From Opitutales bacterium (GTDB lineage Bacteria; Verrucomicrobiota; Verrucomicrobiia; Opitutales; Oceanipulchritudinaceae): a stretch of 45,529 nt of DNA. The translations under genes and the position numbers were made by a program. The notes beneath the pieces were generated by a model that did no database searches, had not been told where the DNA came from, and saw only the letters and a program-made list of their open reading frames with translations. Below, in pieces: positions 20,498 through 30,878 of the stretch (within the stretch, counting starts at the first letter, position 1; each line of letters starts with the position of its first letter). The DNA lies in the NCBI GenBank assembly GCA_020831485.1, contig JAFIGG010000025.1:1-45529 (forward strand), in the 5' to 3' direction.

Positions 20498-22708
20498 ATG
20501 AGTACCCTGAAAGTTGCCTTGTTACTGCTGACTCTTGTCGCTGCTTCACCACTTTGGGCTGGCGAGGCCTTTTTTGTATCGCCAGAGGGTGATGACAACT
20601 GGAGTGGACGCTATGAAATAGCCTTGGAAGATGGCTCGGATGGCCCTTTTGCGAGCTTTGAGCGGGCACAGGAGGCAGTTCGAGGGGTGCTGGCTCAGGC
20701 AGGGACTCACCGTGAAGTCCGTGTCTGGGTGCGCGGCGGTGTTTATGAGCGGCGGCAGACGTTGCGTCTGGGCGGGGAAGACAGTGGCATTGGCCCCGCG
20801 CTCGTTCACTGGCAGGCCTATCCGGGAGAGCGGGTTGTTTGGTCCGGAGGGCAAACGGTTCGCGGTTTTCAGCGACTGAGCGATACGGATATTGAATCAA
20901 GGGTGCCTGGCACCAATCGCGAGCGGATTTATGTAGTCGACCTCAAGGCGGCCGGAGTGGAAGACTACGGTGAATTGCGGCGGCTCGGGTTTCATATCCC
21001 CTACACGCCATCTGCCTTGCAGCTTTACTACCGGGAGGAGCCGATGACGCTGGCCCGCTACCCGAACGAAGGCTGGGAGCTGATTGCCGCGGTCCCGCAG
21101 GATGGCGAGCGGCGAATCCACCCGGGAAACCCTGTGGACAAGCGGGACGGAAAGGTCCCGACCGGGCGCCATTACGGGGCAATTGAATACCATGGGGACC
21201 GGCCGGCTTCCTGGGCTTCGCATGAGGATATCTGGCTGCACGGTTACTGGACCTGGGACTGGGCGGATTCGACCCAGCAAGTTGCGTCCATCGATACCGA
21301 AACCCGGCGCATCGAGTTGGCCGAACCGCATCACAATTACGGTTATACCAGCGGCCAGCGCTTTTACTTCTACAATGTTCCGGAAGAGCTGGATGCAGCC
21401 GGCGAATGGTATCTGGACCGTGAGCGCGGACTGCTCTTCTTCTGGCCCCCGGACGGCGACGCTTTCAGCGCTGAAGTCAGCGTGTCCATTCTGGCGGATC
21501 CAATGATAGTGGTTGAGGATGCGGCGCACATTCGCCTGCAAGGCTTTGAATTCGCTTATGCCCGTGGGCCAGCCATAGTGATTCGCAATTCCGAGGCTAT
21601 TGAAGTCGTCGGCGGATCGTTCCACAACCTCGGCGGTCGACCGGTGACCATTGAGGGCGGCAGCCAGTGCCGTGTGGTCGACGGTGTTTTCACCAAGCTC
21701 GACACCGGTGCCATTGATGTCTCCGGTGGCGACCGTTCCAGCCTCGAACCCGCTGGTCACGCCATTGTGAATAACCACATTCATCGCTTTGGCCTGACCT
21801 TTCGAACCTACCACCCGGCGATTCGCATTAACGGGGTGGGGCAAAGAGTTGCTCACAACCTTATTCACAATGCCCCGCACATGGCGATTTCCTTCCAGGG
21901 CAATGACCACCGGATCGAATACAACGAGATTTTCGACATCGCCCGCGAGACCGGGGATGTCGGAGCCATTTACACCGGCCGCGACTACACCAGCCGGGGA
22001 ACCATCGTACGCTACAATTTTCTACACGACCTCCATGGCCCCGGTTTGCACGGAGTGCGCGCGGTCTATCTCGACGATTTTGCCAGTGGAATTCAGATAT
22101 ACGGCAATGTCTTCCACCGCGCCGGACGGGCTGCCTTTGTCGGCGGCGGCCGCGACAATGTGATAAGCAACAACGTTTTCATCGACTGCGAACCCTCCGT
22201 CCAGATCGATGGCCGCGGCCTCAGCTGGGCCAATCATCACCTCGATGAGGATCATCCCAATTACGTGCCGACCCTACGCAATTTCATGCGCGACGCGCGG
22301 GTAGACCAGCCCCCGTATGCCGAGCGCTATCCCGAACTGCAAAAGTTATTCACAGACGAACCCAAAGTTCCGAAAGGCAATATTGTGGCCAATAACATAT
22401 CCTACGACGGCATCTTTCTGGACCTGTTCGACGGCGTGGATTTCGACACCGTCGAAGTTCGCGACAATTATATCGGCGACCCCATTGCTCTCAGAATTAC
22501 CGAGGACACCGACCAGGACCCGGATTTCGAAATTCACCACAGCGCAAACCCTGATACCCGGATCCCCGCAAACACCGTCGCCGCAAAACCTTCTCGCCCC
22601 TACGCAATCATCGACGGAAAAATTCAAGCCAACCCGGAAGCATTCCCCAAAGGAATCGGTTTTGTCCCGATCCCCATCCATAAAATCGGATTGCAGCAAG
22701 AAAAGTAG
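20498..22708 (+). CDS. Secreted right-handed beta-helix enzyme, GH141-like
   Basis: Secreted carbohydrate-active protein of 736 residues. A signal peptide (about 1-22, ending PLWA) is followed by FFVSPEGDDNWSG, an opening common in polysaccharide-acting beta-helix proteins, and then many parallel beta-helix coils (about 340-640) rich in Asn and Gly (HAIVNNHIHRFG, HRIEYNEIFDIA, IQIYGNVFHRAG, DNVISNNVFIDC). The conserved acidic stretches DVGAIYTGRD and AVYLDDFASG could hold the catalytic Asp residues. The domain order resembles GH141 (fucosidase/xylanase family), but a polysaccharide lyase or epimerase is possible. Its TAG stop lies in the GTAG head of the RAYT-flanking repeat at 22705. Confidence 0.78.
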   Translation: MSTLKVALLLLTLVAASPLWAGEAFFVSPEGDDNWSGRYEIALEDGSDGPFASFERAQEAVRGVLAQAGTHREVRVWVRGGVYERRQTLRLGGEDSGIGPALVHWQAYPGERVVWSGGQTVRGFQRLSDTDIESRVPGTNRERIYVVDLKAAGVEDYGELRRLGFHIPYTPSALQLYYREEPMTLARYPNEGWELIAAVPQDGERRIHPGNPVDKRDGKVPTGRHYGAIEYHGDRPASWASHEDIWLHGYWTWDWADSTQQVASIDTETRRIELAEPHHNYGYTSGQRFYFYNVPEELDAAGEWYLDRERGLLFFWPPDGDAFSAEVSVSILADPMIVVEDAAHIRLQGFEFAYARGPAIVIRNSEAIEVVGGSFHNLGGRPVTIEGGSQCRVVDGVFTKLDTGAIDVSGGDRSSLEPAGHAIVNNHIHRFGLTFRTYHPAIRINGVGQRVAHNLIHNAPHMAISFQGNDHRIEYNEIFDIARETGDVGAIYTGRDYTSRGTIVRYNFLHDLHGPGLHGVRAVYLDDFASGIQIYGNVFHRAGRAAFVGGGRDNVISNNVFIDCEPSVQIDGRGLSWANHHLDEDHPNYVPTLRNFMRDARVDQPPYAERYPELQKLFTDEPKVPKGNIVANNISYDGIFLDLFDGVDFDTVEVRDNYIGDPIALRITEDTDQDPDFEIHHSANPDTRIPANTVAAKPSRPYAIIDGKIQANPEAFPKGIGFVPIPIHKIGLQQEK

Positions 22709-22796: not shown

Positions 22797-23417
22797 TCAC
22801 CGGATCACGGTATGTATGGAACCTTCGCTGTATCCTGGGTATTTCCGGTAGCATTGGCAAAGACCGGCTTTGATTGGGTTCTGCTGTATGTAATGGCGAA
22901 TCAGTTCCAGGGACGTATTTGAGCGTATCCAGTGATCGAACCAGTCTTCTTGCCAGAGCCTGCCGGTTCGATTCAAGAGCTGATTCAATTGGCGAGATGT
23001 TCTGCCTTTGAATTGTGTCATGAAGGCTTGGAGATCATGACTCTGGCAAGAATTCGACCGGGTGACGAAGTGGATATGATTTGGCATTAGGATCAGTGGC
23101 CCGCTTTGCCAATCTCGTGAAGCGATGGCATTGAGGAGGATTGGGACGGCCTCTTTGCATCTCTTGTCCGAGACGAATGGCGAGAGCCCCAGGCATCGAT
23201 CCAGATAAGTGTCCAAAATAAGAAAGTATTGCCGCTGTAAATGGATTAACTGGAGGGATTTGGCTTCCGCTTGAACCACCGCTTTTGCTGCTTTCCGCAG
23301 ACGATGCTTGACCGAATCAGGCAAGCTGCCAGCACAGCGCACCGTTATAAAATACGTTCCGTTTTCGACCTCCCAATGCGGGAGTTGCTTACGCCATATG
23401 CGAACGATTTTTTGCAT
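22797..23417 (-). CDS. REP-associated tyrosine transposase (RAYT, Y1/HUH)
   Basis: Single-strand DNA nuclease of the IS200/IS605-like Y1 family, 206 residues. Seen: the HUH motif in LMPNHIHF, the N-terminal YFITVRC strand, and the candidate catalytic Tyr in RHYIQQNPIKAG. RAYTs are chromosomal single-copy relatives of transposases that cut and spread REP palindromes; the E. coli enzyme recognises a 5'-GTAG beside the hairpin. Here the gene lies between two near-identical GTAG-headed inverted-repeat elements (22705-22796 and 23476-23569), which are therefore its probable substrates. Length and motifs look complete, so it may be active. Confidence 0.9.
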   Translation of the reverse strand: MQKIVRIWRKQLPHWEVENGTYFITVRCAGSLPDSVKHRLRKAAKAVVQAEAKSLQLIHLQRQYFLILDTYLDRCLGLSPFVSDKRCKEAVPILLNAIASRDWQSGPLILMPNHIHFVTRSNSCQSHDLQAFMTQFKGRTSRQLNQLLNRTGRLWQEDWFDHWIRSNTSLELIRHYIQQNPIKAGLCQCYRKYPGYSEGSIHTVIR

Positions 23418-23475: not shown

Positions 23476-23569
23476 GTAGCCCCAGGCCTTCAGCCTGGGG
23501 ACTGGGGCCTTGGTGCGGGTTTGGGGCGCTGGTTGAGTCGCGGTCCCTCCGCTGAAGCGGGAGGGCTAC
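23476..23569. repeat. GTAG-headed inverted repeat pair (BIME-like), right copy of RAYT element
   Basis: A 94-base element. Left arm: GTAG then the perfect hairpin CCCCAGGC-CTTCA-GCCTGGGG. Right arm, read on the minus strand: GTAG then CCCTCCCGC-TTCA-GCGGAGGG. The middle GGTTGAGTCGCGGTCCCTCC is identical in the left copy. The final CTAC supplies the TAG stop (minus strand) of the SBP-TRIC gene. Confidence 0.85.
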
Positions 23570-25671
23570 TGTATCCGATTATGATCCGTTACGTAGAGGT
23601 TTACGAATTCGGAAAGGAGGGCGAAGAGGCGTTGGAAACGGTAGCTGCGCTGGATGGCGGATTCGTCGGTGGTGTCGCTGGCCGTGTGCTCGCGGCGCAG
23701 GCGCTCGAAGCGCTGGGGGTCTGCGGTGGCGAGGGTGGAGAGCATTTCGATGTTGATGGGGTCGGGGTCGTCGAGGGTTTCGGTGATGGCTTCGATGACG
23801 GCGTGCAGGCTTTCCCAGCAGGCTTGGTCGAGGGTGTTCCAATTGGCAGGGGCGTCGTTGGCGAGGGCGTAGAGGTCTTCTTCCAGGCGGCGGATACGTT
23901 CGAGGCGATTTTGCAGTCGCAGCAGGCGGTCGGCATCGCTTTCACCCAGAGCTTCCCGGGTCATGTTGCGGAAGCGGGTGTGGCAGGTGTCGATGCGGGA
24001 GAAGATATCGTTGTGCAGGGATTCGAGTTCAGCGTGGGTTTGTGGACGTGATACGCCTTTAACTTCCGGGATGAATGCCTGCAGGGTGTGCCAGAGTTGC
24101 TGCTCGTTTTTTAGGTATTCGCTGAACCGCTTTTCGGGAGCGGTCGCACGGTTGCCCAATTGGAGGGGGTTGGACCAGTCCCTGAAAATGATCAACAGGC
24201 GAAGACTGAAACCTGCGCCGATAGCGATGAAGGTGGTCCAGACGATGGCATTGGGGTTGAGTGCGATGCCGGGCCGTAGCAGGAACAAGGCGTAAACGAT
24301 GCCGATGAGTATCGAGATCTCACCATAGCTATCCTTCTTCAGAATGCGGATGTCATGGTCGGCTCGAACCATGTCCCGCAGAATGACGCCGAACGAAGCG
24401 GTGATCACCCCAAGCACCGGGCCCCAGAGCCAGAGAGGGGCGATCTGGTTCTCGGCGGCTACGCCGACACCGATCACGGTAAACGCTGCCACCGCCCAGG
24501 CGTCGAAGACTTTAAACAGGCGCTCGTAGAGCCGCATGGCCCAACGCTCCGCTCCTGCCGATTGTTCGAAAAAGCGTGGGCGTAGTGTATCCCACAGGTT
24601 GAACAATGCGGTGCCAGCGACCACGAGGCCAAGGACCAGCAGTATATACACTGGGGTCTCGATGAAAAAGACTGGAGTCTGCCCGATCAGCAGGTCGCGG
24701 ACCAGACCACCGCCGACGGCGGGTGTCGCCGCGAGAATCAGGGCCCCAAAAAAATTGTAGCGGCCTTTGCGCGCGAGCAGAATGCCGGACATTGAAAAGG
24801 CTGCGATTCCCATCAGGTTGAGAATGAAAAACCAGCGCTCGGTGGTGGCTATTGAGAGGAAAGTGGGCAGCAGGAAATCCCTCTGCATGCGCAGCACTTC
24901 GCCGGAATCCAGTAGCTCCCGCAGCTGCTGGTCGAGTGCTTCGATTTCTTCGGTTGAGAGCGTGTCGCGGTTGAAAATGAAGTGGACCTCGGTCCAGCCC
25001 AGGTCCAGCGGGTGTTCATAGGCCCTGCGACGATCGCCCATTCGGCCGAGCAGTGCATTGATGACCAAAGGGTCGGCGATGATTGCGTCGACCTGCTCCT
25101 CCATCAAAGCATGCAGCATTTCGCGTTCGTCGCGAAAGCTTTGGACCTGCTCGCTGTTTGCCGGATCGTTCAGGAAGTTCTCGAGCTCAGCATTTGCATA
25201 GACGTAACCTTCGGCGACGCCCGCGCGGACCGAGTCCTGGCGCAGCCAATCCAGGAGATCGTCGAGCTGCTCAAACGCAGCCTCCGTGCGCATGGAGCGA
25301 TGAATGAAAAGGGTATTGCGCTCTTCCCTGTAGGAGGGCGAATAGTGCACCGGCCCCGGACGCTCCTCGCGGAGGTAGGCGCCGATAATGACGTCCTGCT
25401 CAGCATTGGCGAATCTGTCCATTTGCTCGGACCAGGAAGCTGCATCGAACTCAACGCGTAAGCCCGTATCGCGCGCGAGTCTCTGTAGTAGCTGCACCTC
25501 CAGACCCGTGAGCATACGCGTATCGCGGCGCTCCTCTTCCATTTGATAGGGTGCGCGCTCAAACCAGGCGCTGTGCAGGGTGCGGGGTGCGGTCTGGCCG
25601 CTCAGGGATTGGACGACTATGGTGAGGAGGACCAGCCAGCAGGCGCGTACGCTGTTAAGAAATAAGGACAA
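23566..25671 (-). CDS. Periplasmic amino-acid-binding-type domain fused to a TRIC (UPF0126) cation channel
   Basis: Unusual 701-residue membrane protein. Signal peptide (about 1-25); an SBP family 3 domain (about 28-268, with LTGLEVQLLQRLARDTGL and EEQVDAIIADPLVINALL); then a seven-helix TRIC/UPF0126 domain (about 278-497) with two repeats, the first with the GGGLVRDLLIG motif (320-330), the second with FGVILRD (427-433) in place of a full Gly triad; then a helical cytoplasmic domain (about 500-701). TRIC proteins are trimeric monovalent-cation channels. The fusion suggests a ligand-gated channel or a sensor. It is the last gene of a four-gene operon with STAS and RsbW-like proteins, 4 bases after the kinase gene. 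Its stop codon lies in the GTAG head of a family D repeat. Confidence 0.88.
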   Translation of the reverse strand: MSLFLNSVRACWLVLLTIVVQSLSGQTAPRTLHSAWFERAPYQMEEERRDTRMLTGLEVQLLQRLARDTGLRVEFDAASWSEQMDRFANAEQDVIIGAYLREERPGPVHYSPSYREERNTLFIHRSMRTEAAFEQLDDLLDWLRQDSVRAGVAEGYVYANAELENFLNDPANSEQVQSFRDEREMLHALMEEQVDAIIADPLVINALLGRMGDRRRAYEHPLDLGWTEVHFIFNRDTLSTEEIEALDQQLRELLDSGEVLRMQRDFLLPTFLSIATTERWFFILNLMGIAAFSMSGILLARKGRYNFFGALILAATPAVGGGLVRDLLIGQTPVFFIETPVYILLVLGLVVAGTALFNLWDTLRPRFFEQSAGAERWAMRLYERLFKVFDAWAVAAFTVIGVGVAAENQIAPLWLWGPVLGVITASFGVILRDMVRADHDIRILKKDSYGEISILIGIVYALFLLRPGIALNPNAIVWTTFIAIGAGFSLRLLIIFRDWSNPLQLGNRATAPEKRFSEYLKNEQQLWHTLQAFIPEVKGVSRPQTHAELESLHNDIFSRIDTCHTRFRNMTREALGESDADRLLRLQNRLERIRRLEEDLYALANDAPANWNTLDQACWESLHAVIEAITETLDDPDPINIEMLSTLATADPQRFERLRREHTASDTTDESAIQRSYRFQRLFALLSEFVNLYVTDHNRIQ

Positions 25672-25675
25672 GGCT

Positions 25676-26077
25676 CTAAAGCTTTTTGCTCAATTGCACG
25701 ACATTGCGGTCGCCTTTGCGCCGGTAGTCGCAGGTATCCATGAGTTTCCGGACTAGGAAGACGCCCAGGCCGCCGATTGGGCGATCGTCGATGTCAGCCT
25801 CAATATCCGGTTCCTTCGCCGAGAAAGGGTCGAATGCTTTGGCGTTGTCGCACAAACAGATTTCGACGACATCGCCCTTGCGTTCGATTTCTACTTCGAT
25901 GCTGTGTTGCCCAGGCTGCTCGTAGCCGTAGTTGATGGTGTTGGTGACCAGTTCGTCGAGGGCCAGATTGAGCTGCTGGACCGTCTGTGGGCTGAGCGAT
26001 TCTGCTTGGCCGAAGGCTTCCAGCTCAGTGGCCAGACGATTGAGTTCGCTGAGATCGTTTTTGAGGGTGAAGCGCAT
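25676..26077 (-). CDS. RsbW-like anti-sigma factor/serine kinase
   Basis: GHKL-type ATPase of 133 residues that in partner switching phosphorylates a STAS antagonist and sequesters a client, classically a sigma factor. The N box LALDELVTNTINYGY and the glycine-rich lid GGLGVFLVRKLMD are clear. The G1 box reads DNAKAFDP, where relatives usually have D-D/N-G-x-P/A-F-(D/N)-P; the Gly is replaced by Ala. It lies between the STAS gene (29 bases upstream) and the SBP-TRIC gene (4 bases downstream). No sigma factor gene is present in the window, so its client is unknown. Confidence 0.9.
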   Translation of the reverse strand: MRFTLKNDLSELNRLATELEAFGQAESLSPQTVQQLNLALDELVTNTINYGYEQPGQHSIEVEIERKGDVVEICLCDNAKAFDPFSAKEPDIEADIDDRPIGGLGVFLVRKLMDTCDYRRKGDRNVVQLSKKL

Positions 26078-26106: not shown

Positions 26107-26457
26107 TCAGCCTGCGAGGGCTTGCAAGGCTTCGGCGCGGGTGGGGTGGATGTCGAGGATGGAGGTGAAACCGGATATTTCCAGAACCTGGCGTACGCCT
26201 TCCTGAGGCTCTGCCAGAGCGATTTGGCCCTGTGACGATTTGGCCCGTTTGGCGGCCATCAGCAGGACCCGCAGTCCCGCGCTGCTCATGTATTCGAGTT
26301 CGGAGGCATCGATGAGGATCGATGCCTCGTCCGATGAAGCTGAATGGTCGACCAGATACTTATCGGCCTGGGCACTGGTGCTGCCGTCGAGCCGACCTTT
26401 CAGGTGAACGATGGTGATGCCTTGTTCCGTTGTGTCTTTGATCTCCAGCATAGGCAT
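26107..26457 (-). CDS. STAS-domain anti-sigma factor antagonist
   Basis: SpoIIAA/RsbV-like protein of 116 residues. The single STAS domain has the phospho-acceptor serines S58/S59 in EYMSSAGLRVLL and a conserved hydrophobic core. When unphosphorylated it should bind the RsbW-like kinase encoded next to it and release the kinase's client. It is the second gene of the operon, 37 bases after the STAS-fusion gene. An ATG two codons in (26451) is an alternative start. Confidence 0.92.
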   Translation of the reverse strand: MPMLEIKDTTEQGITIVHLKGRLDGSTSAQADKYLVDHSASSDEASILIDASELEYMSSAGLRVLLMAAKRAKSSQGQIALAEPQEGVRQVLEISGFTSILDIHPTRAEALQALAG

Positions 26458-26494: not shown

Positions 26495-27814
26495 TCAGCC
26501 CTTTACCGGGCGTCCTTCGGGATCGGCGACGAATTGCTGGATGGCGCTGACACCGATCAAGGCGCGCTGGACTACACAGTCGTCCAGCAGGTGGCGCATG
26601 TCGACAAATTCCCCCTCATCGATCACCTGCTGGATTTCATCGTGCAAGTTGCCAGGCTCTTTTGGGAAGGGCTGGGATTTGAAGAAGACTCCGTGGTTGT
26701 GCAGCATTTGGTCGGTGGCACCCTTATTGCCGGGATTGATATAGAAGCAGGCACCGAGTCGCTCCGAGTCGTAGCGGGAAAGGTCGGAACTGAGATCAAT
26801 GCCGACGCCCGTGATCAATCCGGTGACGTGCTTGTAACGCGGCTTTTGGTCGATCTCGAACCATTTGGCAAAGTTGTCGGGGTGGGTGATCATTTCCCCA
26901 TTCTTTGGAGCGTTTTCGGCGATCGTGGAAAAGAGCACGCCGGAACCATAGACTGACTTCATTTCGGCACGTAAAGTGACTTCGAGTCCGCCCTTGAAAT
27001 CGGGTCGCTGTCGTTTGGCCCAGGCGAACAGGTCGCGGTAGATTTCGGCTAGGGTGGCGCCTTTGTCGTCGGACTCGAAAAGAAACAGGTCATTGAAATC
27101 TCCGTGCAGTGAAACATTGAAACCCGTTCGGATGCTTACTTCGCCGGTGTCGGTTTTAGGAATCAGGTAGTCCGGCGTATCGTGACCATCCGTGGGCAGC
27201 CAGACCATGGCGCCCCCTATGGTGATCATTTCCCCGAACAGCGGCATGTAGTCGCCCGGCTCCGCGCCCAATGCGCCGAGGCCGATGGAGTATTCCGTTT
27301 CGGAAAAGCGCTTGGAATGGACATTGTCCAGGGTTACCCGGGAATAGAGCACATCTTCAATGTGACCCAACACGCGAATCTCGCCCGGATCCTTGCTCCA
27401 GGGGCTGTGCCTGAGTGTGCCCCCGCTGGCCGCTGCCGCAAAAGGCTCACTCCACTCGCAGGCTCGGGGCGAGCGGATGCCTTCCGTTTGCAGGACGCTT
27501 GCGACATCTGTGGCCGTTGGCAGTTGACCGCTGAACCCAGTCATGTTCAGGACCTGTTCACAGTAGCCATGCAAGCCAGCCAGATACAACTTCTGCCCGA
27601 CCGTATTCTGGGCTTTGTAGGTGGCTAGCAAAACGCGGATACCCGCACTGCTCAGGTAGCTCAGGCCGGACATGTCGAAGATTATAAGGCGTTGGTGCGA
27701 TGCGTTCAGGAGCCCTTTTACGGCCTCCTCGAGGTTCTTGGATCCGTAGGCATCGAGGCGGCCATCCAGTTTGAGAACGGCGTGCGTTTCGTGTATCTGG
27801 GCAGTAACTTCCAT
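26495..27814 (-). CDS. STAS domain fused to a large domain of unknown function
   Basis: Protein of 439 residues from the ATG at 27812-27814; an upstream TTG at 27883 would add 23 residues with no STAS similarity. The N-terminal STAS domain (about 1-105) has S55/S56 in LSYLSSAGIRVLL and so could be phosphorylated like RsbV. The C-terminal part (about 125-439) is soluble, rich in Gly/Asp and aromatic residues (EYSIGLGALGAEPGDYMPL, GEMITIGGAMVWLPTDG, TGLITGVGIDL), and I do not recognise it; a degenerate PP2C-like fold is only a guess. It is the first gene of the four-gene signalling operon and divergent from the THI5-like protein gene. It may be an effector arm of the partner switch. Confidence 0.8.
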   Translation of the reverse strand: MEVTAQIHETHAVLKLDGRLDAYGSKNLEEAVKGLLNASHQRLIIFDMSGLSYLSSAGIRVLLATYKAQNTVGQKLYLAGLHGYCEQVLNMTGFSGQLPTATDVASVLQTEGIRSPRACEWSEPFAAAASGGTLRHSPWSKDPGEIRVLGHIEDVLYSRVTLDNVHSKRFSETEYSIGLGALGAEPGDYMPLFGEMITIGGAMVWLPTDGHDTPDYLIPKTDTGEVSIRTGFNVSLHGDFNDLFLFESDDKGATLAEIYRDLFAWAKRQRPDFKGGLEVTLRAEMKSVYGSGVLFSTIAENAPKNGEMITHPDNFAKWFEIDQKPRYKHVTGLITGVGIDLSSDLSRYDSERLGACFYINPGNKGATDQMLHNHGVFFKSQPFPKEPGNLHDEIQQVIDEGEFVDMRHLLDDCVVQRALIGVSAIQQFVADPEGRPVKG

Positions 27815-27925
27815 GTTGTTTGGTATGCGGATGATTGGAATTCGTTCAAGCTTTGGGTCGATTTCAAGAATCCTTGACAACAAACTGGATTGGCGGTCGT
27901 CTCCCAGTCTAATATGGGAGCGTTT
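27815..27925. promoter_or_regulatory. Divergent promoter region of the signalling cluster with ribosome-site hairpin
   Basis: The only gap between the divergent four-gene and two-gene units. A perfect TTGACA at 27874 faces the plus strand, but no convincing -10 follows at 16-18 bases. The inverted repeat CTCCCA-N8-TGGGAG (27901-27920) pairs the ribosome site GGGAG (27916-27920) of the next gene, so it could block translation, or serve as an operator. Confidence 0.45.
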
Positions 27926-28912
27926 ATGCAGTTTCGGCGCGGTCTCATCACCCTATGCGCTGTTTTTTGTGGCCACACTGTGGCGGCGTTGCCTGTGCAG
28001 GCGGACGAGTTGACTCCAGTTCGTTTTCTGCCCGCCTGGATACCCCAGGCTCAGTTTGCCGGCTTCTACGTGGCGGAGGATCGGGGCTTTTACGCGGAGG
28101 CGGGTCTGGCCGTTGAAATCCTACAAGGGGGTCCTGAGCGTCCGGCCAGCCAGTATCTGGGACGTGGGGAGGTGGATTTTGCCAGTTTGTTCTTGTCGCA
28201 GGCGATTGAATTGAAGGGAGCTGGAGTTCCGGTCGTCAACCTTGCACAATTGATCCATCGATCCTCCCATTTGCTTTTGGCGCACGCTGATTCCGGGATC
28301 GAAGGCCCGGCCGATCTGGATGGCCGCAAGATTGCGGTCTGGCCGGATTTCATCGCCCAGCCGCGGGCACTGTTTCGCCGCTACGAGGTTGAGCCGGTGC
28401 TGGTGGAGCAGGGGGCAAGCATGGGAGTTTTTATCCGCCGCGGCGTTGATGTCGCCAGTGCGATGCGTTACAACGAGTTTCAGGCCCTGTATTTATCCGG
28501 TTTCGAAGCGGATGAGTTTGTAGTGATTGAATTGGGTGCGCACAACGTGGGCTTTCCGGAAGACGGCATCTATGCCTTGGAGCACACTTTGGACTCGGAT
28601 CCGGAGCGGGCACGCGCCTTTGTCGAAGCCAGCCTGCGCGGATGGGAGTATGCCTTTGCTTACCCGGAGGAAGCCATCGATTCCGTGATGGCGCGGGTGC
28701 GGGCGGCGGGGGTCATTTCCAACCGGGCACACCAGATGCGGATGCTGGAAGTTCTGCGCAGTGTCTATTTTGATGAGGATGGTCAGCGTGAGCCGGTGGT
28801 TCTGAGCCGGGAGGATTTTGAATTTGTGAATGAAGCGATGATGCAATCGGGTGACCTGTCGGAGCCACTCGACTACGAGCGCTTCAACCGACCCGTCCTG
28901 AGCAATGACTAA
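27926..28912 (+). CDS. THI5/NMT1-like periplasmic substrate-binding protein
   Basis: Periplasmic ligand-binding protein of 328 residues of the SsuA/THI5 (NMT1) group. Start ATG at 27926, 5 bases after GGGAG; signal peptide about 1-26 (VQADE). Seen: FAGFYVAEDRGFYAEAGL, EILQGGPERPASQYLGRGEV and DLDGRKIAVWPDF, typical of the fold. No ABC permease or ATPase gene is nearby. Instead the gene overlaps the start of a Cache-HAMP-PP2C phosphatase gene by 8 bases, so the protein probably delivers a ligand signal to that sensor rather than taking part in transport. The ligand is unknown; family members bind pyrimidines, sulfonates or nitrate. Confidence 0.88.
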   Translation: MQFRRGLITLCAVFCGHTVAALPVQADELTPVRFLPAWIPQAQFAGFYVAEDRGFYAEAGLAVEILQGGPERPASQYLGRGEVDFASLFLSQAIELKGAGVPVVNLAQLIHRSSHLLLAHADSGIEGPADLDGRKIAVWPDFIAQPRALFRRYEVEPVLVEQGASMGVFIRRGVDVASAMRYNEFQALYLSGFEADEFVVIELGAHNVGFPEDGIYALEHTLDSDPERARAFVEASLRGWEYAFAYPEEAIDSVMARVRAAGVISNRAHQMRMLEVLRSVYFDEDGQREPVVLSREDFEFVNEAMMQSGDLSEPLDYERFNRPVLSND

Positions 28913-30878
28913 AAAACGCAGTTTAGCCGTTAAGCTATCCCTGATTGTGCTTGCCAGCACATCGGCCATATTCTTTGCCGCATTTGGAGCCACCTACTTC
29001 ACGGTGCGCAGCATGATGTTGGACAATGCGGAGGCGATGGCGACCAAGCTCACGGATGGCACCGCCAACCACATTCACGCGACACTGAACTCGGTTATGG
29101 CGGCGGCGCAGCCTTTGGCAGCTGTAGTCGAGTCGGGCTGGTTGGAGGGGGAGCAGCTCCACCGCATGTTGGATGAGATGGTTCTACGGTCGAATCGAAT
29201 CTCCGGGGCCGCAGTCGCTTTTGAGCCGTTCTCCGTCGATCCGGACCGGCGTTACTACGCGCCTTTTTCCTACAAGCAGGACGGTGAAATTCATCGGACT
29301 TTCCTTGGTGGCGAGGATCTGCATTATTTTGTCAGGGATTGGTACCAGATCCCCAAAGAGACGGGCCGACCAATTTGGACCGATCCCTATCATGCAGAGG
29401 GTGGCGCCGATGAGTTTATCGCGACCTTCGCACTGCCTCTCTACCGCGAGCCCTCTGATCCAGACAGCTTTATCGGGGTTATAGCCCTCGATGTGTCCCT
29501 GGACAGCATGCTGGAGATGATCGAGGACGTATCCATTTACGATAGTGGATTTGCCTTCATGGTCAGTTCCAGTGGGGCCTTCGTGACCTATCCGGAGCCG
29601 GAACTGGTGCGCCACGAGAGTTTCTTCAGTCTAGCGGAAACCTGGGAGATTCCCGAACTCCGCGAGATTGGCCGGGCGATGGTGCAGGATAGCCGTGGAT
29701 TTGTGCGCCTGCCGGATGGCTTGATTGGCGAGTCGGCCTGGTTGTATTACGCGCCACTAGACGAGGCGGACTGGAACCTGGGCGTCGTGATTCCAGAGGC
29801 TGAATTGTATGGCGATGTGCTACAGTTGATCCAGAGGATCCTGATCATTGCCGGGGCTGGCTTTGTGATTCTGCTGGTGGTGATCGTTGGCGTTTCCCGC
29901 AGCATCACCCAGCCGTTGAAACGGCTGGTCAAAACCGCAGCCCAGATTGCCAAGGGCAATCTGGACGAGAAGATGCCTCCCGCTGAATCGACCGACGAAG
30001 TGGGCGAGCTGGCGAGGTCCTTTGATGAGATGCGGGTGGCGCTGAAGGACTACATCAACAATTTGACCGAGACTACCAAGGCCAAGGAGCGCATCGAAAG
30101 TGAGCTGCTAATTGCGCAGAAGATCCAGATGAGCTTTCTGCCCAAAAAATACAGCCTGCCGGCGAGTGTCAAAGGCATCGACCTGAACGCACAGTTGGTT
30201 TCAGCCAAACACGTTGGCGGAGACTTGTATGATTTTTTCCTGTTGAAGGATCGCTACCTCTATTTCGCCGTGGGTGATGTTTCGGATAAGGGAGTTCCGG
30301 CCGCTTTGTTGATGGCGGTGACCAAAACGCTGGTGAAGGGCATTGCCGAGCAGTACAACGATCCGGGAGAAATCCTCGAGCGGGTGAACAATGAGCTCTG
30401 CTTTAACAATGAAAACAGCATGTTTGTGACCTACATTTGCGGCATGCTCGACTTGGAGAACGGCGAGCTGAGCCTGGGCAACGCGGGTCACAATCTTCCC
30501 TTGCTGCGGCGCGCCGGCCGGCGCCCGGAGTGGCTTGAGCTGACGCCGGGACTCGTGCTCGGCGCCATGGAGGATATGAAATACGGGGTACATAAGATCC
30601 AGTTGAACCCCGGTGACAGCATTCTTTTCTATACGGATGGCGTGGTCGAGGCTGAGGATAAGGATCAGGCGCTCTACGGCGATGAGCGACTGCTGAACCT
30701 TTATGCCGAGTTGGTGGGGCAGACTCCGAAGCAGACGGTGACCCGGATTATTGAGAGCGTCGGTAGCTTTGTCGATGGCGCGCCGCAGTCAGACGATATT
30801 ACGGTTCTGGCGCTCGATTATCGTCCGGAATCACCCACACCTCAGCTCCGGGCACGCTCCGCTCGAGGGTCTGCTTGA
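28905..30878 (+). CDS. Cache-HAMP-PP2C serine phosphatase (RsbU/SpoIIE type)
   Basis: Membrane sensor phosphatase of 657 residues. A membrane helix (about 10-32), a periplasmic double-Cache domain (about 35-300, with RDWYQIPKETGRPIWTDPYH), a second helix (312-331), HAMP (about 332-385), a linker with LIAQKIQMSFLPK (about 398-411), and a PP2C/SpoIIE domain (about 430-645) with metal ligands in GGDLYDFF, GDVSDKG and SDDITVLAL. It should dephosphorylate the STAS proteins encoded across the divergent promoter, activating the partner switch. Co-translated with the THI5-like protein, which may bind the Cache domain. Its 3' end overlaps the convergent CDF-like gene by 80 bases. Confidence 0.93.
   Translation: MTKKRSLAVKLSLIVLASTSAIFFAAFGATYFTVRSMMLDNAEAMATKLTDGTANHIHATLNSVMAAAQPLAAVVESGWLEGEQLHRMLDEMVLRSNRISGAAVAFEPFSVDPDRRYYAPFSYKQDGEIHRTFLGGEDLHYFVRDWYQIPKETGRPIWTDPYHAEGGADEFIATFALPLYREPSDPDSFIGVIALDVSLDSMLEMIEDVSIYDSGFAFMVSSSGAFVTYPEPELVRHESFFSLAETWEIPELREIGRAMVQDSRGFVRLPDGLIGESAWLYYAPLDEADWNLGVVIPEAELYGDVLQLIQRILIIAGAGFVILLVVIVGVSRSITQPLKRLVKTAAQIAKGNLDEKMPPAESTDEVGELARSFDEMRVALKDYINNLTETTKAKERIESELLIAQKIQMSFLPKKYSLPASVKGIDLNAQLVSAKHVGGDLYDFFLLKDRYLYFAVGDVSDKGVPAALLMAVTKTLVKGIAEQYNDPGEILERVNNELCFNNENSMFVTYICGMLDLENGELSLGNAGHNLPLLRRAGRRPEWLELTPGLVLGAMEDMKYGVHKIQLNPGDSILFYTDGVVEAEDKDQALYGDERLLNLYAELVGQTPKQTVTRIIESVGSFVDGAPQSDDITVLALDYRPESPTPQLRARSARGSA

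Follow-up and report, generated by a model that had tools for sequence, protein, structure and literature searches.

Organization of the locus

The analysed window, a stretch of 45,529 nucleotides from a genome of the order Opitutales (Verrucomicrobiota), carries on its minus strand a fusion gene (23566..25671) that encodes a protein of 701 aa, in which a solute-binding protein (SBP) domain of family 3, a TRIC channel domain and a PhoU-like cytoplasmic tail follow one another in a single reading frame of 701 open codons without internal stop. Its TTG start lies 4 bases past the stop codon of the gene upstream, which codes for an RsbW/SpoIIAB-like kinase of the anti-sigma type with an HATPase_c_2 domain (25676..26077, minus strand). 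The kinase gene is preceded by a STAS phospho-acceptor of the anti-anti-sigma type (26107..26457, minus strand) and by a second, longer STAS protein (26495..27883, minus strand; probably starting at the ATG near 27814), giving the operon order STAS-STAS-RsbW-like kinase-fusion. A divergent operon on the plus strand opens with an NMT1/THI5-like solute-binding protein (27890..28912) and continues with a phosphatase of dCache-HAMP-SpoIIE (PP2C) architecture (28905..30878). Directly downstream of the fusion gene lies a REP-associated tyrosine transposase (22797-23417), and the window also encodes a secreted right-handed beta-helix protein (20498-22708) that weakly matches the GH141 insertion domain.

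A Pfam search of the host genome finds no TRIC gene other than the fusion. The union of an SBP family 3 domain, a TRIC domain and a helical cytoplasmic tail in one open reading frame, proposed in a preliminary description of the locus, is confirmed by Pfam and by the predicted structure (AlphaFold2, eleven input sequences; pLDDT 81 and pTM 0.61 for the full-length model). The joining of two genes by sequence error, considered in the same description, is ruled out because the SBP-TRIC junction recurs in about 40 other species. A frame error or chimaera was further rejected as fusions are also present in isolates such as Zwartia hollandica, Thalassospira lohafexi and Roseovarius litoreus, and the complete fusion, including the tail, has counterparts of 52% identity in two further genomes. 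The protein begins with a signal peptide or hydrophobic N-terminus (residues about 1-26; 25594..25671, minus strand), which contains a hydrophobic stretch at residues 2-20 (mean hydropathy 1.91) and corresponds to the first helix of the predicted structure.

Solute-binding and TRIC domains

The SBP family 3 (amino-acid type) domain covers residues 28-272 (24856..25590, minus strand) and is recognized by both Pfam and fold. SBP_bac_3 (PF00497) matches residues 41-264 with 36.2 bits against a cut-off of 26.4, and residues 28-272 of the model adopt the bilobed SBP fold, superposing on amino-acid SBPs with Z 21-23 and on the ligand-binding core of a GluR0 with a fold Z of 21.2. The ligand residues R104 and D200, which we take, by the motif of GlnBP/LAO-type proteins, to be the canonical alpha-carboxylate Arg and alpha-amino Asp pair, are both present and, together with the fold, support the periplasmic amino-acid-type domain of the preliminary description. 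The column of D200 varies among the tail-bearing fusions (Ala in the genomes G084 and G070, Asn in G069), and therefore the choice of ligand may differ between them.

The TRIC domain (residues 278-502; 24166..24840, minus strand) is assigned by Pfam, by sequence match to PDB entries and by fold, and comprises seven TM helices. Gly_transporter/TRIC (PF03458) is matched with 92.4 bits against a cut-off of 23.5, in two repeats of 68.9 and 40.0 bits. Residues 280-502 of the model, where a TRIC fold had been expected at 278-497, superpose on CpTRIC (5wuf) with Z 24.7 and an rmsd of 2.0 Å over 193 of 195 residues, and the solved prokaryotic TRICs among the matches listed give Z 23-25 and rmsd 1.9-3.4 over 193-203 residues. 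The topology of the fusion, with the N-terminus outside and the C-terminus inside, is consistent with a seven-TM TRIC.

The pore landmarks are kept in TM2, which retains the GGG triad (residues 320-322), and in the lock residues D390-R432-D433-Y449, all of which are present; the corresponding Asp(TM4)-Arg-Asp(TM5)-Tyr network is described for the SaTRIC structure and is conserved in prokaryotic members (PMC5477506). Among 41 compared fusions, the lock network is conserved in 40 and the TM2 GGG in 34. In TM5 of the window protein, the triad is degenerate, with F427-G428-V429 (24385..24393, minus strand) in place of the prokaryotic GGG signature, so that the second pore repeat had rightly been called short of glycines. 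The GGG signature is typical of prokaryotic TRICs; eukaryotic members contain less glycine, and those of animals nonetheless conduct (PMC5477506).

These residues bear on whether the protein could be an SBP-fused amino-acid transporter, in which the SBP would hand its amino acid to a TRIC-fold carrier and the tail and the neighbouring switch would regulate uptake. PF03458 is indeed named 'Glycine transporter' in Pfam, and PMC5401562 mentions that metabolite export had been proposed earlier for prokaryotic TRICs, which also counts in its favour. However, the TM2 kink and the lock network, landmarks of K+-conducting TRICs, are kept in the window protein, and SaTRIC, a solved prokaryotic TRIC, conducts K+ in bilayers (PMC5477506). 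Such a transporter matches the sequence nearly as well as the ligand-gated channel proposed in the preliminary description does and is the nearest rival to it, and we consider it unlikely.

Cytoplasmic tail and the altered TM5

The six-helix tail (residues 505-701; 23569..24159, minus strand) is defined by model, fold and homology, and the helical cytoplasmic part that had been anticipated behind the TRIC domain is borne out by the predicted structure. Modelled alone (pLDDT 84, pTM 0.81), it takes up a PhoU fold, with two bundles of three helices each. Rows 1-14 of the Foldseek output are all PhoU or PhoU-like, with E-values from 0.011, and the match is therefore evidence of fold and not of sequence. 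VIA-align places the tail on the PhoU-like protein 3l39 with Z 16.9 over 182 residues, on Aquifex PhoU with Z 15.4 and on the cytosolic part of the plant channel ALMT1 with Z 14.9, on a scale where helical bundles can reach Z about 13 from their arrangement alone. The PhoU sequence model PF01895 matches none of six tails, even at E 5, and the tail is therefore named PhoU-like rather than a PhoU member. DUF3135, YgaB and FUSC were discarded as Pfam names for it, their matches being weak and below cut-off, and the fold was needed for its identification.

The tail profile also matches two Na/Pi cotransporters and one ABC ATPase, in each case in the C-terminal domain, and the alignment with the cotransporter tails is nearly full length (hhalign 97.1%, E 5.8e-11). 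The domain is therefore transporter-associated, which supports the channel reading favoured below, while its presence on Na/Pi cotransporters also counts in favour of the amino-acid transporter discussed above; it is best named a PhoU-like transporter tail. The two cotransporters and the ATPase (L101 454-2055, L102 496-2106 and L103 634-2004) end in PhoU-like tails that have no Pfam PhoU match, and the tail is a candidate new transporter-tail family.

Seven of the SBP-TRIC proteins found carry the tail: those of the window, G084, G070, G069 (two tandem genes), L018 from Desulfuromonadales and G818 from another lineage of Verrucomicrobiota. Six of them were placed in a tree built from the SBP-TRIC core without the tail, where they form one clade (100/100), and the simplest account is that the tail was acquired once. 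The TM5 triad follows the same division. It is GGG in 34 of 35 tail-less fusions, FGV in the tail proteins of the window, G084 and G070, and GGV in those of G069 (both copies) and L018, as well as in that of G818, which is outside the 41-fusion count; the third glycine is absent from all seven tail-bearing fusions. As the tail proteins are one clade, the change in TM5 represents one or two events and not seven independent ones. That every tail-bearing protein has an altered TM5 suggests a joint evolution of tail and pore.

With two TM5 glycines gone, conduction could be altered or lost, and the protein might then be a receptor instead of a channel, its TRIC domain serving as a membrane anchor with reduced conduction through which an outside ligand is relayed to the partner switch. 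The two glycines are missing exactly in the switch-linked Opitutales proteins, the three with FGV, and the neighbouring Cache-SpoIIE and NMT1 proteins are sensory, as this would have it. Nevertheless, the window protein retains its lock network and the GGG of TM2 unchanged, the conducting animal TRICs are themselves poorer in glycine, and sensing is already provided in the module by a Cache domain of its own, so that a receptor is, in our judgement, quite improbable.

Distribution of SBP-TRIC fusions

The preliminary description regarded the fusion as unusual, which holds for the rare tail, found on the seven proteins above, and does not hold for the SBP-TRIC part, which is widespread in about 40 species. 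An alignment scan of species genomes recovers SBP-TRIC fusions from Pseudomonadota (Alcaligenaceae, Roseomonadaceae, Roseobacteraceae, Thalassospira, Caedibacter and others), Verrucomicrobiota, Planctomycetota, Thermodesulfobacteriota (represented by a Desulfuromonadales MAG) and a Cyanobium MAG; a scan of the whole species collection with the single protein gave no match. Order-wide and class-wide searches add nine fusions to that of the window, plus a tandem copy beside one of them, and within the order the distribution is patchy (5 of 372 genomes). No plasmid record covers 80% of the fusion protein, the plasmid matches listed being TRIC-only, and a search of viral contigs returned no fusion match. 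At locus L011 (8956-13444), two tandem SBP-TRIC-tail genes adjoin recA, mnmE and mnmG, and the same genome holds a further tandem pair of tail-less fusions (L013).

No paper on SBP-TRIC fusions was found in the literature searched. The abstract of the 2011 TRIC family survey by Silverio and Saier reportedly mentions prokaryotic homologues with domains fused to the N- or C-terminus, and the novelty of the bare SBP-TRIC fusion is uncertain. All the parts are known; what is new, according to the literature searched, in which we found no description of an SBP-TRIC-PhoU-like protein or of its link to partner switching, is the SBP-TRIC-PhoU-like arrangement inside a partner-switching operon.

Partner-switching genes and conservation of the linkage

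The phosphatase, which is the input of the partner switch, the kinase and the shorter STAS protein are identified by Pfam, NCBIfam and alignment, and their catalytic motifs are intact, including the N-box of the kinase and the YMSSAG motif of the STAS protein. The NMT1/THI5-like assignment rests on Pfam, and homologues of this protein adjoin the same phosphatase in G084, G007, G008 and G012. The longer STAS protein continues after its STAS domain for ~330 residues without any Pfam match, a possible output domain; its homologues in G007, G008 and G012 likewise lie next to this module. A search of the host genome, which is 96.8% complete, for a sigma factor of the SigB/F/G type gives five matches, none of them above the TIGR02980 cut-off, a result that leaves room for a sigma of another class as the partner of the switch. 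The internal signalling end attributed to the fusion gains support from the PhoU-like fold and from the presence of partner-switching genes in the same operon; neither of these, nor the tie between glycine loss and tail, had been noted in the preliminary description.

The order STAS-kinase-fusion is conserved across two Opitutales families. The locus in G084 has the same arrangement as the window except for the second STAS gene, and among 344 genomes of the order G084 is also the only one with the 65% orthologue of the phosphatase. In G070, STAS, kinase and fusion are kept and only a remnant of NMT1-SpoIIE is left; at this locus (L010, 7500-8160) what remains is a short piece of NMT1 joined to the C-terminal ~60 residues of SpoIIE, the other three genes being whole, and the remnant is either a deletion or an assembly fault. 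Outside Opitutales, in a Lysobacterales MAG (L025), a gap of ~15 bases separates a STAS gene from the SBP-TRIC gene that follows it, which lacks the tail; the pair is divergent from a SpoIIE-HATPase fusion. A common clade of the L025 protein with the switch-linked proteins of Opitutales is rejected by a tree test (p 0.0002), and the association with the switch therefore arose, or was assembled, twice; the linkage is known from these two lineages only, which is a small sample. The other fusion loci examined, with flanks of up to 8 kb where available, have no switch genes, and none were found near the tail-bearing genes of L011, L018 and G818. The idea that tail and switch always occur together was dropped on these grounds, L025 having a switch without tail and L011, L018 and G818 a tail without a switch nearby.

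Three genomes of the family of the window (G007, G008 and G012) have the NMT1-SpoIIE-HATPase-STAS module without an SBP-TRIC match. There, ABC_sub_bind solute-binding proteins come after the module, joined in G007 by a BPD_transp_2 permease, so that the slot of the fusion is filled by other binding-protein-dependent transport genes and is therefore a transport slot, a further point for the amino-acid transporter. In genomes of this family (L111 9230-13302, L112 8134-11868 and L113 1750-5511), NMT1-SpoIIE-HATPase(-STAS) precedes proteins of up to 1253 aa in which the ABC_sub_bind domain is repeated two to four times in tandem, and the placing of binding proteins above or below a partner switch may be a recurring feature of Opitutales.

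The existence of the module without the fusion, and of tail-bearing fusions without the module, would also be expected if the SBP-TRIC protein were a mere neighbour, an independent channel beside a switch that acts elsewhere. Against this stand the distance of only four bases between the kinase gene and the start of the fusion, the order shared by two families, the retention of STAS-kinase-fusion in G070 after the loss of NMT1-SpoIIE and the separate STAS-fusion operon of L025 with its gap of about 15 bases, and mere neighbourhood is accordingly held to be a poor prospect, on a par with the receptor.

Proposed function: a ligand-gated channel under a partner switch

The reading that we favour, to which we give somewhat less than an even chance, is that of a TRIC cation channel that is gated outside by an amino-acid-like ligand and is coupled through its tail to a partner-switching phospho-relay inside; for this reading, we infer the ion conduction, the class of the ligand, the direction of signalling and the contact between the tail and a switch protein. 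The SBP domain would close on its ligand and pull or relax TM1 through the short helical linker (residues 258-276), and the movement of linker and TM1 would change the opening of the pore. The PhoU-like bundle, hanging from TM7 under the pore, would be the regulatory contact. The NMT1-type SBP and the Cache-HAMP-SpoIIE phosphatase would set the phosphorylation of STAS against the RsbW-like kinase, and one of the switch partners, instead of binding a sigma factor, would bind the PhoU-like tail or otherwise read the channel, so that the partner switch would tell whether the channel is to be open or shut, or would be told by it. This reading draws on the TRIC fold with its lock network and TM2 GGG, the SBP fold with its Arg and Asp, the resemblance of the tail to PhoU and to ALMT1, the TM5 change that accompanies the tail, the intact motifs of the switch proteins, the short distance to the kinase gene, the linkage seen in G084, G070 and L025, the lack of a SigB/F/G sigma above cut-off and the status of the fusion as sole TRIC of its genome. 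The modules without an SBP-TRIC in G007, G008 and G012, the possible effect of the TM5 change on conduction and the small number of linked lineages speak against it. The more specific proposal, in which the channel is opened by ligand, the tail is bound by the kinase or by STAS in its dephosphorylated form and the anti-sigma/anti-anti-sigma pair governs ion flux and not transcription, is decidedly less probable and rates below the transporter. Given the switch without a tail in L025 and the tails without a switch in L011, L018 and G818, contact may be made elsewhere than at the tail.

If the SBP domain gates the pore, cation channels controlled by an SBP would have been built in a second way, separately from the GluR0/iGluR line. 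The gating of prokaryotic TRICs is not understood, and the ligand and the tail would offer two natural handles on it. If the favoured reading is true, partner switching would reach from sigma factors to a membrane channel.

Comparison with known systems

With the prokaryotic TRICs (SaTRIC 5wtr, SsTRIC 5h35 and CpTRIC 5wuf; PF03458), the window protein has in common the seven-TM fold, the TM2 GGG and the D-R-D-Y lock. Those proteins consist of the TM domain alone (about 200 residues), whereas the window protein adds the SBP domain, the PhoU-like tail and the FGV of TM5. GluR0 likewise joins an amino-acid-binding domain of SBP fold and a cation pore in one chain, the pore of the window fusion being predicted. 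Its P-loop tetrameric pore is inserted within the SBP domain, between the two lobes; in the window fusion, by contrast, the SBP domain is contiguous (28-272) and stands in front of an unrelated TRIC pore, which is expected to be a trimer. The Na/Pi cotransporters (PF02690, in G082 and G377) have a homologous cytoplasmic helical tail but an unrelated membrane domain and no SBP.

The RsbU-RsbV-RsbW and SpoIIE-SpoIIAA-SpoIIAB systems share with the window a PP2C phosphatase, a STAS protein and an HATPase kinase with their catalytic residues, and HsbR-HsbA and SiaABC are partner-switching systems of the same type in pseudomonads. Compared with the Rsb and SpoII switches, the one in the window occurs without a sigma of the SigB/F/G type above cut-off and with a channel-like membrane protein in its operon.
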